From NCBI RefSeq assembly GCF_900444995.1, contig NZ_UAPQ01000001.1:62001-126000 (forward strand): 64,000 bases of DNA. The letters are read 5' to 3'. Shown in pieces: positions 48,504-54,141 of the stretch. A program made the translations under genes and the position numbers. Position 1 is the first letter of the stretch. Each line of letters begins with the position of its first letter. The notes under the pieces were generated by a model that saw only the letters and a program-made list of their open reading frames with translations, had not been told where the DNA came from and searched no databases. Source of the DNA: Actinomyces bovis (GTDB lineage Bacteria; Actinomycetota; Actinomycetes; Actinomycetales; Actinomycetaceae).

Positions 48504-48550
48504 TGATTTCGGTGACGGCGGCGAGCAACTGCGCATGGTGTGATCGAGCC

Positions 48551-48814
48551 ATGAACACGACTAGCCCCGCCGTCACCGAGTCGGTGACCACCACGTCCGT
48601 GTTGGACTCCCCTACCCCCATCTCCCACACCGAGCGTCCCTTGACCACCGCGGACCGTTGCGACGCCTGTGGCGCGCAGGCCTATCTCCGCGTGGTTCTC
48701 GCCTCCGGCGAGCTGCTGTTCTGCGCCCATCATGGACACAAGAACGCTGCCGCCCTGGATCGGGTGGCACTTTTCATTCAAGATGAGTCCGCTCGCTTGA
48801 CCAAAAGCGAGTGA
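48551..48814 (+). CDS. DUF7455 family small protein
   Basis: 87 residues. LTTADRCDACGAQAYLRVVL followed by SGELLFCAHHGHKN contains CxxC plus C..HH, probably a zinc site; similar proteins (LTxADRCDxCGAQAY) sit beside the primary sigma factor gene in many actinobacteria. The start is uncertain: ATG 48551 has TGTGAT 6 nt ahead, whereas ATG 48500 overlaps the DCC stop (ATGA) and would give 104 residues. Function unknown; a link to RNA polymerase is only suggested by neighbourhood. Confidence 0.78.
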   Translation: MNTTSPAVTESVTTTSVLDSPTPISHTERPLTTADRCDACGAQAYLRVVLASGELLFCAHHGHKNAAALDRVALFIQDESARLTKSE

Positions 48815-48951: not shown

Positions 48952-50625
48952 TCAGTCCAGGTAGTCGCGCAGAACCTGACTACGCGAGGGGTGACGCAGC
49001 TTGCTCATGGTCTTGGACTCGATCTGGCGGATGCGCTCACGGGTAACCCCATAGACCTTGCCGATCTCATCCAGGGTCTTGGGCTGCCCATCAGTCAAGC
49101 CAAAGCGCATGGAGACAACGCCAGCTTCACGCTCAGACAGAGTGTCCAACACTGCATGCAGCTGCTCCTGCAGCAGGGTGAAGGAGACGGCGTCGGCAGG
49201 TACCACTGCCTCGGAGTCCTCAATGAGGTCACCGAACTCACTGTCACCATCCTCACCCAGCGGCGTGTGCAGGGAGATGGGCTCACGCCCGTACTTCTGC
49301 ACCTCAATGACCTTCTCCGGGGTCATGTCTAGCTCAACAGCCAGCTCTTCCGGGGTGGGTTCGCGGCCAAGGTCCTGCAGCATCTGGCGCTGTACGCGGG
49401 CCAATTTGTTGATGACCTCAACCATGTGCACGGGAATGCGGATGGTGCGGGCTTGGTCAGCCATGGCACGAGTAATGGCCTGGCGGATCCACCAGGTGGC
49501 GTAGGTGGAGAACTTAAAGCCCTTGGTGTAGTCGAACTTCTCTACGGCGCGAATCAAGCCCAAGTTGCCTTCCTGGATCAGATCCAGGAAGAGCATGCCG
49601 CGGCCGGTGTAGCGCTTAGCCAGGGAGACAACCAGGCGCAGGTTGGCTTCCAACAGGTGGTTCTTGGCCCGCTGACCGTCCTGCGCCACCCAGTGCAACT
49701 CGCGGCGGTAGCGGGCCTCAAGCTCATTACCTTCGGTGCCCAAGAGGTGCTCGGCGTACATGCCGGCTTCAATACGCTTAGCCAGTTCAACCTCTTCAGC
49801 GGCGTTGAGCAGCGCAACTTTACCGATCTGTTTGAGGTAGTCCTTGACCGGGTCAGCGGTGGCACCAGCGGTCACTACCTTCTGCGCGGGCTCGTCAGCC
49901 TCATCAGAGTCGGAGACGGTGAAGCCGCCGTCCTTGTCCTTTTCGGCGTTCTTGCGGCGCTTACCGCCCCTGCGGGCAGCTTCCTTCTCAGCCTGCTCTC
50001 GGCGGATCCGCTCCAGGTCACCGGTCAACGCGGCAATGGAGGGCTCCATCTTGATGCCTTTAATGACCCAACCCCGGAAGACATAACCATTCTCGGTCAG
50101 GAAGTCACGGGCCACCATCGGGGCGGAGTCGCCTAGCACGAAGCGAGGCACGGGGCCGTGGCCGTAGGGGGCCAGGACAATGGGCTCCTCCAGGGTGCCG
50201 TGACCGGAGATCTCCAGGTTCTCCACCACGGTGCGCGATCGGATGAACAGGGTCGCCCCAGGCGCTAGGCGCACACCCTTGAGGGCCGCTGGAGTGTTAA
50301 AAGGCTTGCGCTTGGTGCCGTCACCGTTCTCTTCCAGGGTGACGTCTAGGTAGTAGTCGCGCTTCTCTACCGGCGGCTCCGGCTCTGACTCTTCAGCTTC
50401 CTCGTCGTCCTCATCGTCAGAGTCCTCGTCATCGGAGTCCTCATCATCCTCGTCAGAGTCGTCGTCCTCATCGAGGTCATCGTCGTCGAGGTCATCATCG
50501 AGGTCGTCGTCATCGTCGTCGAGGTCATCGTCCAGATCGATGTCGTCGTCCTCGCGCTCCTCCTCGGGGATATCGTCCACGGGGGCAGCCTTGCTACGCT
50601 TCCGCTGAGCGGTGGAAGAAGCCAC
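48952..50625 (-). CDS. rpoD: Primary RNA polymerase sigma factor with unusual N-terminal insert
   Basis: 557 residues from GTG 50625, preceded by AAAGGA. Order: short basic start, an acidic Asp/Glu tract (about 18-85), an insert of about 105 residues (89-193), a basic helical stretch (about 194-230), then the sigma core from about residue 257 ([14 protein letters not shown], region 1.2). Region 2 ([20 protein letters not shown]) and region 4.2 ([20 protein letters not shown]) identify a housekeeping sigma-70 factor. The insert begins [19 protein letters not shown] and contains [19 protein letters not shown] and [11 protein letters not shown], which resemble the first coils of a right-handed beta-helix protein (DUF1565/NosD type); this is not a known sigma-factor domain. 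Confidence 0.95.
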
Positions 50626-50760
50626 GGAGTTCCTTTCACAGGAGGGCATGCGGTCGTGGGGCCGCCGAAGCGACACCTTGTTGGCAACCGTCGGATCATA
50701 CCGTTTATTCCCACGTGACTTTTACCGCTCTGAGCAACGACCCGCCGTCGAGTTCTCCGT

Positions 50761-51990: not shown

Positions 51991-54141
51991 GTGGCCCAGG
52001 ATCCCCTCATCGGACGTGTAGTCGACTCTCGTTACAAGATTGTCGACCGGGTAGCCCGTGGCGGCATGGCCACCGTTTACCGCGCGCAAGACCGGCGCCT
52101 GGATCGGCTGGTGGCTTTGAAGGTCATGCATGCCCATTTGGCGGAGTCCAGTGACTTTGTGTCCCGCTTCCGGCGTGAAGCGCGGGCTGCAGCGCGCCTG
52201 TCTAACCCCGGGGTGGTGGCAGTCTTTGACCAGGGCAGTCTGGACGGCGTCGCCTATCTGGTTATGGAGTATGTGGAAGGCCCAACTCTGCGAAACCTCG
52301 TGACGGCAGGGCCCCTGTCCGTCTCTGAAGCCTTGGAGCTCACGATTCAGGTGCTGCGGCCTTTGGGGGCTGCGCACCGCGCTGGCTTGGTGCATCGGGA
52401 TATTAAGCCGGAGAATGTGCTGCTGCCCGCCGATGGTTCGGTTGCTAAGGTCGCGGATTTTGGGCTGGCCCGGGCGGTCACTGAGACCACGCAGACCACC
52501 ACCGGCAATGTGCTGGGCACAGCGGCTTATCTGGCGCCTGAGCTCATCACCAGCGGCGACTCAAGCCCACGAGCGGATGTCTTTTCTGTGGGCGTGATGC
52601 TCTACGAGATGCTCACCGGAGTGCAGCCCTTCCGGGGTGAGACCCCCATCCATATTGCCTTCCGCAATGTGCATGAGGATGTGCCAGCGCCCTCGGCCCT
52701 AGTCCCTGAGCTACCAGCTTCTGTGGACCAACTGGTGGCGGCTTTGGCAGCGCGTGATCCCCAAGCACGCCCATCTACTGCTGATGCCGCTGCGGTGCAG
52801 GTGCGTTCAGCCTCGGAGGCACTTAAGCCGGAGGAACTGGCTATTCGCCGCAGTGGTGGGCTGGTGTCGGTGGATGGCTACGGCGCAGACCTGGTGGGGC
52901 GAGCGCGGGCCGCGCTAAAGCTTGCGGACGGGGAGCAGCCCGTGCCCCCGGCAGACTCCCCCGCCACTGCGCCCGCTGATGGTGCTTCTGCGGAAGAGTC
53001 CAGCCAGCGTCCTGAGGCAGAGTTCCAGGTGGGAGGCCGCACGGTTTCTTTGCCGGTGGGCTCGATCGGGCCGGTGGGCACTACGCGCCTAGAAACTAGC
53101 GGTCCTGGCCACACCAGTGTGCTGCCGACGGGCCCAAGAACTGGCCAGGCGACGCCGTCAAGCCCGCTGCCAGCGGGGCCGAGCGGATCAGCAGATCAGG
53201 CGCTAGCACCTACTGCTTCAGCCTCACTGGCTCATCCCCGGCGGCGTGCCCTGCTTGGGCTCGGCGCTTTGGGCCTGCTGGGCCTAGGAGGCAGCGGGGC
53301 CGGTTGGTACTTCCTGGCGGGACCTGGCCGACGTGTCAGCGTTCCTGACATCACGGGGATGTCTGCCGTGGAGGCGGAGCAGCGGGTTGCTGACGCCGAA
53401 CTCAAGTGGAAGCGCGCAGAGGATGCTTTCTCTGACACGGTGGCTGCGGGTGTGGTTATCTCCACGACTCCGGAGCCTGGCCGACGGCTGGCGCCGGGTA
53501 CTGAGCTGACGGTGGTGGTCTCCAAAGGCATTGAACAGGTGACTGTGCCTGAAATCGTAGGGAAGACTAAGGAGGAAGCCACCAAGCTTTTGAGCGCCGC
53601 GAAGCTGCGGCTGGGTGCGGTTACTGAGGAGTATTCGGCCTCGGTGGCCTCCGGGCAGATCGTGTCTTGCACTCCGGAAGCTGGTGCCACTGTTAACCAC
53701 TCCTCGGCGGTGGCGGTGGCAGTCTCTAAAGGCAAGCGCCCAGTGACGGTGCCCGACGTCGTCGGGATGACGAAGGCCGAGGCTGAGAAGGCCATTAAGG
53801 ATGCGGGTCTGAAGGTGGGCACGGTGCAGGAGACAGCTTCTGACACTGTGGAGTCTGGGAAGGTGATTTCCTCGAATCCTTCAGCCAACACGGCAAATGT
53901 CTTTGCGGGTGACGCCGTTGACCTTGTGGTTTCAAAGGGGCAGCAGATGGTGACTGTTCCGGATGTCTCCTCAATGGATGAGGAGGAAGCCAAGACCACC
54001 CTTGAGCAGGCCGGCTTCATCGTGCAGGTGCAGAAGGTGCGTCGTCCGCTCTTGTCTTTCCGTGACGTTGCCGACACTGACCCGGCGGCGGGTTCCAGCG
54101 TGAAATACGGCTCGAATGTGACACTTAAGGTCTACGACTGA
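51991..54141 (+). CDS. pknB: PASTA-domain Ser/Thr protein kinase (PknB/Stk1 type)
   Basis: 716 residues from GTG. Kinase domain about 14-270: VARGGMATVYRAQD glycine loop, VALKVM (ATP Lys), HRDIKPENVLL near 134 and DFGLA. A Pro/Ser-rich juxtamembrane stretch follows, one membrane helix (about 418-440), and four PASTA repeats (449-716) outside the cell; these sense muropeptides or lipid II and control wall growth and division. It converges with aroG, 9 bp apart. The usual pbpA/rodA/pstP neighbours are absent, so this is probably an additional PASTA kinase rather than the division-cluster copy. Confidence 0.93.
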   Translation: MAQDPLIGRVVDSRYKIVDRVARGGMATVYRAQDRRLDRLVALKVMHAHLAESSDFVSRFRREARAAARLSNPGVVAVFDQGSLDGVAYLVMEYVEGPTLRNLVTAGPLSVSEALELTIQVLRPLGAAHRAGLVHRDIKPENVLLPADGSVAKVADFGLARAVTETTQTTTGNVLGTAAYLAPELITSGDSSPRADVFSVGVMLYEMLTGVQPFRGETPIHIAFRNVHEDVPAPSALVPELPASVDQLVAALAARDPQARPSTADAAAVQVRSASEALKPEELAIRRSGGLVSVDGYGADLVGRARAALKLADGEQPVPPADSPATAPADGASAEESSQRPEAEFQVGGRTVSLPVGSIGPVGTTRLETSGPGHTSVLPTGPRTGQATPSSPLPAGPSGSADQALAPTASASLAHPRRRALLGLGALGLLGLGGSGAGWYFLAGPGRRVSVPDITGMSAVEAEQRVADAELKWKRAEDAFSDTVAAGVVISTTPEPGRRLAPGTELTVVVSKGIEQVTVPEIVGKTKEEATKLLSAAKLRLGAVTEEYSASVASGQIVSCTPEAGATVNHSSAVAVAVSKGKRPVTVPDVVGMTKAEAEKAIKDAGLKVGTVQETASDTVESGKVISSNPSANTANVFAGDAVDLVVSKGQQMVTVPDVSSMDEEEAKTTLEQAGFIVQVQKVRRPLLSFRDVADTDPAAGSSVKYGSNVTLKVYD

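Follow-up and report, generated by a model that had tools for sequence, protein, structure and literature searches.

A domain related to the first coil of right-handed beta-helix proteins, probably captured, in the primary sigma factor of Actinomyces

Primary sigma factors are among the most conserved and essential bacterial regulators, and region 1.1 (PF03979), a folded module N-terminal to region 1.2, is their usual gate. Mycobacterial SigA, like the Actinomyces SigA described here, has a long N-terminal extension with an acidic stretch ahead of region 1.2, and this stretch, residues 132-179, is required for initiation (PMC10011835). In M. smegmatis, CD and NMR show the extension to be disordered (PMC11656743), and PMC12288462 describes mycobacterial sigma 1.1 helices that lie beside the beta-prime insertion and gate DNA entry. 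The Actinomyces domain that is the subject of this study resembles region 1.1 in its position as a module N-terminal to region 1.2 of a primary sigma, but it is unrelated in sequence and, judged by homology, would differ in fold, region 1.1 being helical and the Actinomyces domain beta.

The window, i.e. the whole stretch of 64,000 nucleotides of Actinomyces bovis DNA analysed here, contains a sigA/hrdB-type gene on the minus strand (48952-50625) with an open and intact frame of 557 codons plus stop. It starts with a GTG (50623-50625), preceded at a distance of five bases by a Shine-Dalgarno-like GAAAGGA (50631-50637, minus strand). Four Pfam domains above cut-off (Sigma70_r1_2, r2, r3 and r4) place regions 1.2, 2, 3 and 4 in this order, and NCBIfam sigma models match as well. 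The genome holds a single match at E<=1e-130 and two further sigma-70 genes, both shorter than sigA. The product is the primary (group 1) sigma-70 factor of the SigA/HrdB type. Residues 1-88 (50362-50625) comprise a short basic N-terminus followed by a long Asp/Glu tract, with 53 acidic residues among the 75 that precede the domain. The in-frame insert noticed in the preliminary description occupies exactly residues 89-193 counted from the GTG (50361-50047, minus strand), and the motifs quoted for it are present. This probably captured, beta-helix-cap-like domain is followed by a genus-conserved linker (residues 194-257; 49855-50046) with a 23-residue stretch that reads as helix-like, a basic stretch and a conserved 10-residue motif, closing with a stretch of 25 residues; the conserved unit thus extends beyond residue 193. 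The sigma core, regions 1.2 to 4, takes up residues 258-557 (48955-49854).

Downstream of sigA, the DUF7455 gene (48521-48814, plus strand) is convergent with it at a distance of 137 bases, so that the two do not form one transcription unit and the suggestion of a common control unit has to be given up. On the other side, 1.4 kb away, lies a gene for a PASTA Ser/Thr kinase (51991-54141, plus strand). In M. tuberculosis, the N-terminus of SigA undergoes phosphorylation, with PknA implicated (PMC10011835).

The domain at residues 89-193 was found in the sigma factor of all 49 Actinomyces genomes at E 5.9e-59 or better, with 76-95% identity to the window segment in the other 48. The frame continued from the segment into the start of region 1.2 in every one of them, the remainder of the core being cut off at loci L028 and L029 (genomes G040 and G030). 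All 28 loci from named Actinomyces, which derive from separate assemblies including two MAGs, contain it. An HMM of the sigma domain matched 26 of 3692 other ORFs at E<=1e-3, compared to 0/3692 reversed and 0/3692 shuffled sequences; many ORFs of this set had been chosen for similarity, and ORFs containing DYYLDV, including the fucosidase-type L057, were excluded from it. Occurrence in all 49 genomes and in separate assemblies, together with these controls, rules out chance, low complexity or an assembly fault as source of the segment.

Outside the genus, searches of 164 genomes of other Actinomycetaceae gave no match better than 2.3e-13, and those inspected were secreted-looking proteins. Among 297 genomes of the order the best match outside Actinomyces (1.1e-11) was L033, a fucosidase-type ORF, and among 396 genomes of the phylum only the window's own genome matched at E<=1e-11. 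The survey of Actinomycetaceae sigma factors proposed in the preliminary description, based on 40 sigma loci sampled from 33 of the 35 other genera, found the insert in none of the 38 N-termini read in the other genera (leaving aside L121 and L136), with genera g17 and g20 covered by the whole-genome search only. Retention throughout the 49 genomes suggests that the domain probably has a job in starting transcription.

The non-sigma matches that were inspected are chiefly of two kinds. In secreted right-handed beta-helix proteins (L035, L063 and L070; Pfam Beta_helix) the segment constitutes the first coil, and in these three it is preceded by what reads as a signal peptide. In the second kind, large proteins that are secreted and combine an alpha-L-fucosidase domain (PF01120, which we take to be GH29) with discoidin-like domains, an architecture defined by Pfam in L057, L058, L064 and L065, the segment stands alone with no helix after it. 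KHHDGF and WFDGA, which together with WWPSESD we read as fucosidase motifs, occur in 13 of the 14 fucosidase-type ORFs; the locus-truncated L036 has WWPSESD only. One further match fits neither type: an ORF of 114 aa starting at position 1827 of L072 (G132:C20; E 1.3e-5), possibly a remnant.

A profile built from sigma rows only aligned in hhalign with the fucosidase-type domain at 99.2% (E 6e-20, columns 1-103) and with the beta-helix first coils at 98.8% (E 1e-16, columns 1-82); E-values between such hand-made profiles, whose rows were picked from matches, are generous. Against PDB, a mixed profile scored strongly (5.8e-14) and the sigma-only profile modestly, with 7v6m at 7.5e-5, the lacto-N-biosidase 6kqs at 3.7e-4 and 7dmk (BcAlyPL6) at 1.8e-3. 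The structures matched by the domain are 7v6m (entered in PDB as a fibronectin type III domain-containing protein), the lacto-N-biosidases 6kqs and 5gqc/5gqf, and the alginate lyases 7dmk and 7o84; 7v6m and 6kqs are presumably GH136 enzymes. LnbX (5GQF) is a GH136 enzyme with a beta-helix fold (PMC8106489). The sigma domain has in common with the first coils of 6kqs, 5gqc/5gqf, 7v6m, 7dmk, 7o84, L035, L063 and L070 the pattern YYxDxS..GDGS..PFN....L.PGD.L..K.GT....L...G.GT...PI.I..YG. However, the enzymes continue into many coils, whereas the sigma domain ends after about 105 residues and no consecutive coils (Beta_helix or PbH1 repeats) were found in it. From the first-coil pattern and the homology to solved right-handed parallel beta-helix members, we infer that the segment forms a folded domain of first-coil type.

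None of the Pfam families covers the segment, Beta_helix included, and 0/13 rows of alignment A1 matched DUF1565/NosD at E<=1. A match to the NCBIfam PdxT model (E 0.11-0.13) lies far under its cut-off and was attributed to chance. The link to beta-helix proteins put forward earlier is borne out by the first-coil alignments and the solved enzymes; its DUF1565/NosD part finds no backing, and the nearest relative is a stand-alone domain rather than a full beta-helix. A resemblance of a different kind is seen in the N-terminal domain of an asparaginyl-tRNA synthetase (PDB 4zya, E 0.055), which we take to be the appended domain of the human cytoplasmic enzyme. The two have GDGTK.KPF.T of the first coil in common, but the match spans 48 residues only; a parallel capture in eukaryotes is possible.

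In a tree of 34 domain rows (11 sigma, 14 fucosidase type and 9 helix type) the sigma and fucosidase-type rows grouped together, split from the helix type with 98/99 support. The sigma branch is long (1.87), and the tree leaves the exact sister group unsettled. The fucosidase-type domain of Actinomycetales (e.g. L057, L064 and L067) shares with the sigma domain homology over its full length, up to a closing G-W motif, as well as the lack of a following helix and the joint clade, and is 26-39% identical to the window segment. It differs in its net acidic charge, in lacking most of the 28 residues invariant in sigma only (see below), and in its context, a secreted enzyme in which it follows a discoidin-like domain; the sigma domain is seated in a sigma factor. 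To judge by these comparisons, its nearest relative is the stand-alone domain of secreted fucosidase-like proteins. To our knowledge, no catalytic or binding function has been assigned to this stand-alone domain.

A tree of 85 sigma cores, 47 of them from Actinomyces (L028 and L029 being too short), recovered Actinomyces as one clade (96/82) with G048 outside the other members. The G048 lineage retains a short lysine-rich N-terminus ahead of the acidic tract, which indicates that the domain was probably gained once and that a lysine-rich tail was lost afterwards. Such a tail is missing in Actinomyces: the maximum number of lysines per 50 upstream residues has a median of 1 (0-8, n=49), compared to 13 (4-19, n=38) in the relatives, the stretches counted being at most 200 residues before the domain in the former and at most 305 before region 1.2 in the latter. 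Base composition of the domain (GC 0.629, GC3 0.79) is close to that of the core (0.600 and 0.767); it thus carries no foreign signature, and a recent transfer is rejected on compositional grounds. Phage records gave weak matches only (E 1e-3, 32.5% identity, in eight records of Klebsiella phages about 300 kb in size), so that a phage origin was discarded, and the plasmids searched contained no match. A donor within Actinomyces was likewise discarded, as a large fucosidase-like protein with the domain occurs in one of the 49 genomes only (G045:C1:2100674-2102413, L064). Eleven other Actinomyces genomes encode fucosidase ORFs of 443-482 aa, and 37 encode none at E<=1e-6. A single capture, predating the radiation of Actinomyces, would have taken the domain from a lineage of stand-alone domains in secreted fucosidase-like proteins; that a capture took place we hold with great confidence.

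Pairwise dN/dS values (NG86, 49 loci, pairs with dS 0.05-1.0) were 0.062 for the core, 0.226 for the domain and 0.269 for the linker. At about 0.23, some 3.6 times the value of the core, the domain is under purifying selection. Among 47 sequences, each distinct when domain and linker are taken together, 54 of 106 domain columns were invariant. Twenty-six of these agree with half or more of the rows of the fucosidase or the helix type, which marks them as fold residues, while the other 28 do not and count as sigma-only. Nineteen of the 28 fall at residues 152-193, in or near a 15-residue stretch and IKGIKM; in the last part of the domain the relatives align poorly, and part of this excess therefore depends on the alignment. 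The sigma-only residues would suit a docking site that recruits a genus-specific regulator or anti-sigma factor instead of gating DNA, comparable to MoaB2 on mycobacterial SigA. In M. smegmatis, the N-terminal domain of SigA, which is disordered, helps to bind MoaB2, an inhibitor of SigA-dependent transcription (PMC11656743). The adjacent DUF7455 gene, convergent as it is, does not offer itself as a partner encoded in one unit with sigA. We know of no partner gene for the sigma domain. We consider docking unlikely, and yet the main rival to a gating role.

The same residues, together with charge, bear on whether the domain still binds a sugar or other small ligand, so that housekeeping transcription would respond to the level of that ligand. 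Its relatives do occur in carbohydrate-active enzymes, but 28 of the 54 invariant residues differ from those in most relatives, and a net acidic charge was found in 21 of the 24 relatives inspected (some flanking residues included), compared to about equal numbers of basic and acidic residues in 12 sigma rows. A ligand sensor is thus highly improbable in our judgement.

What the domain may have replaced was approached through the N-termini of related sigma factors. Of 46 primary sigma factors from other families of the order (L210 being left out), 27 proved to have a region 1.1-like domain when searched with an iterated HMM started from five seed segments, compared to 0/39 of other Actinomycetaceae, 0/48 of Actinomyces (without L121 and L029) and none of the reversed rows; a rerun with script-cut seeds gave the same counts. 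The sample is uneven, because 30 of the 47 other-family sigmas were the closest core matches. The Pfam model of region 1.1 (PF03979) did not match the window SigA N-terminus. When applied to ten rows it exceeded its cut-off in two (L193 and L198), came near it in L223 and L189, matched L185 weakly (E 0.11) and missed the remaining five. The preliminary description took the usual actinobacterial N-terminus to pass from low-complexity sequence directly to region 1.2. This agrees with the other Actinomycetaceae, where few of the 38 N-termini read carry other modules, and fails for the 27 other-family sigmas with the region 1.1-like domain. The contrast of 27/46 with 0/87 suggests that Actinomycetaceae have lost region 1.1 and that the captured domain sits in the vacated place, although the 19 of 46 other-family sigmas that lack region 1.1 make losses outside the family possible too.

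Other modules were seen at this position in further genera of the family. The sigma ORF of L105 (892-2409; G128) begins with a module that reads as Ig-like, belongs to no Pfam family and shares 45-53% identity with three repeats in a VanY D-Ala-D-Ala carboxypeptidase that looks secreted and is encoded in the same genome (L170:355-1992, minus strand); as a side reading, it may be a second captured extracellular module in a sigma of the family. A Rho_N/SAP domain occurs at the N-terminus of the primary sigma of L115 (G193; Rho_N 3.9e-15) and, more weakly and below cut-off, of L114 (G059). The broader proposal that foreign modules tend to land in the sigma N-termini of this family, and that the Actinomyces beta-solenoid domain, recruited from a secreted glycosidase-like protein, is a non-homologous replacement of region 1.1 and a new promoter-opening gate, appears to us possible but doubtful.

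Such variety, with Ig-like and Rho_N/SAP modules and K-rich tails at the same place, and a sigma core nearly unchanged in Actinomyces, would also suit a passenger or spacer, in which case a folded domain came to lie in a disordered region that tolerates insertions and is kept only to avoid misfolding or aggregation. Against this stand its retention in every Actinomyces genome and the invariance of about half of its columns, 28 of which are not common to half of either relative group; these sigma-only invariants make a pure spacer less likely, and we rate it as quite unlikely.

The mechanism that we propose assigns the domain a place in the holoenzyme and a gating role that we infer from mycobacteria. 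The rigid N-terminal module would keep the upstream helix and the acidic tract in place where DNA enters the polymerase, adjoining the actinobacterial beta-prime insertion, and would tune promoter opening in sigmas devoid of region 1.1, while the sigma-specific conserved face (a 23-residue portion) would make the contact with a partner, with DNA or with the polymerase itself. In the window's genome, the N-terminal 411 aa of beta-prime align over an equal length with beta-prime chains in PDB, without gaps in the case of the best chain; among these are 6eyd and 5vi5 from M. smegmatis and 5uh5 from M. tuberculosis, which implies that the beta-prime insertion is present. Together with the requirement for the mycobacterial acidic stretch and gating by sigma 1.1, its presence points to a rigid module that may position the acidic tract. 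At the thresholds used, only three Actinomyces-specific sites were detected in the sigma core, leaving no clear co-evolved contact patch, and it counts against the mechanism that the remaining Actinomycetaceae do without both the domain and a recognisable region 1.1, and that 19 of the 46 other-family sigmas have no region 1.1 either. Gating by a rigid module is plausible, but we give it somewhat less than an even chance; capture and mechanism taken together, as the best explanation of the data, we judge slightly more probable than otherwise.

Among the matches listed, searches of titles and abstract starts of open-licence PMC articles returned no report of an enzyme domain captured by a primary sigma. 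As far as these literature searches show, a domain from an extracellular enzyme entering the primary sigma factor of a whole genus has not been described before. Actinomyces are common oral bacteria, and our data suggest that models derived from mycobacterial SigA need not apply to them. Their sigma factor offers a way to test directly what purpose the N-terminal portion of a primary sigma serves: if an unrelated fold can replace region 1.1, the requirement would be for bulk, charge and position, and not for a specific fold.
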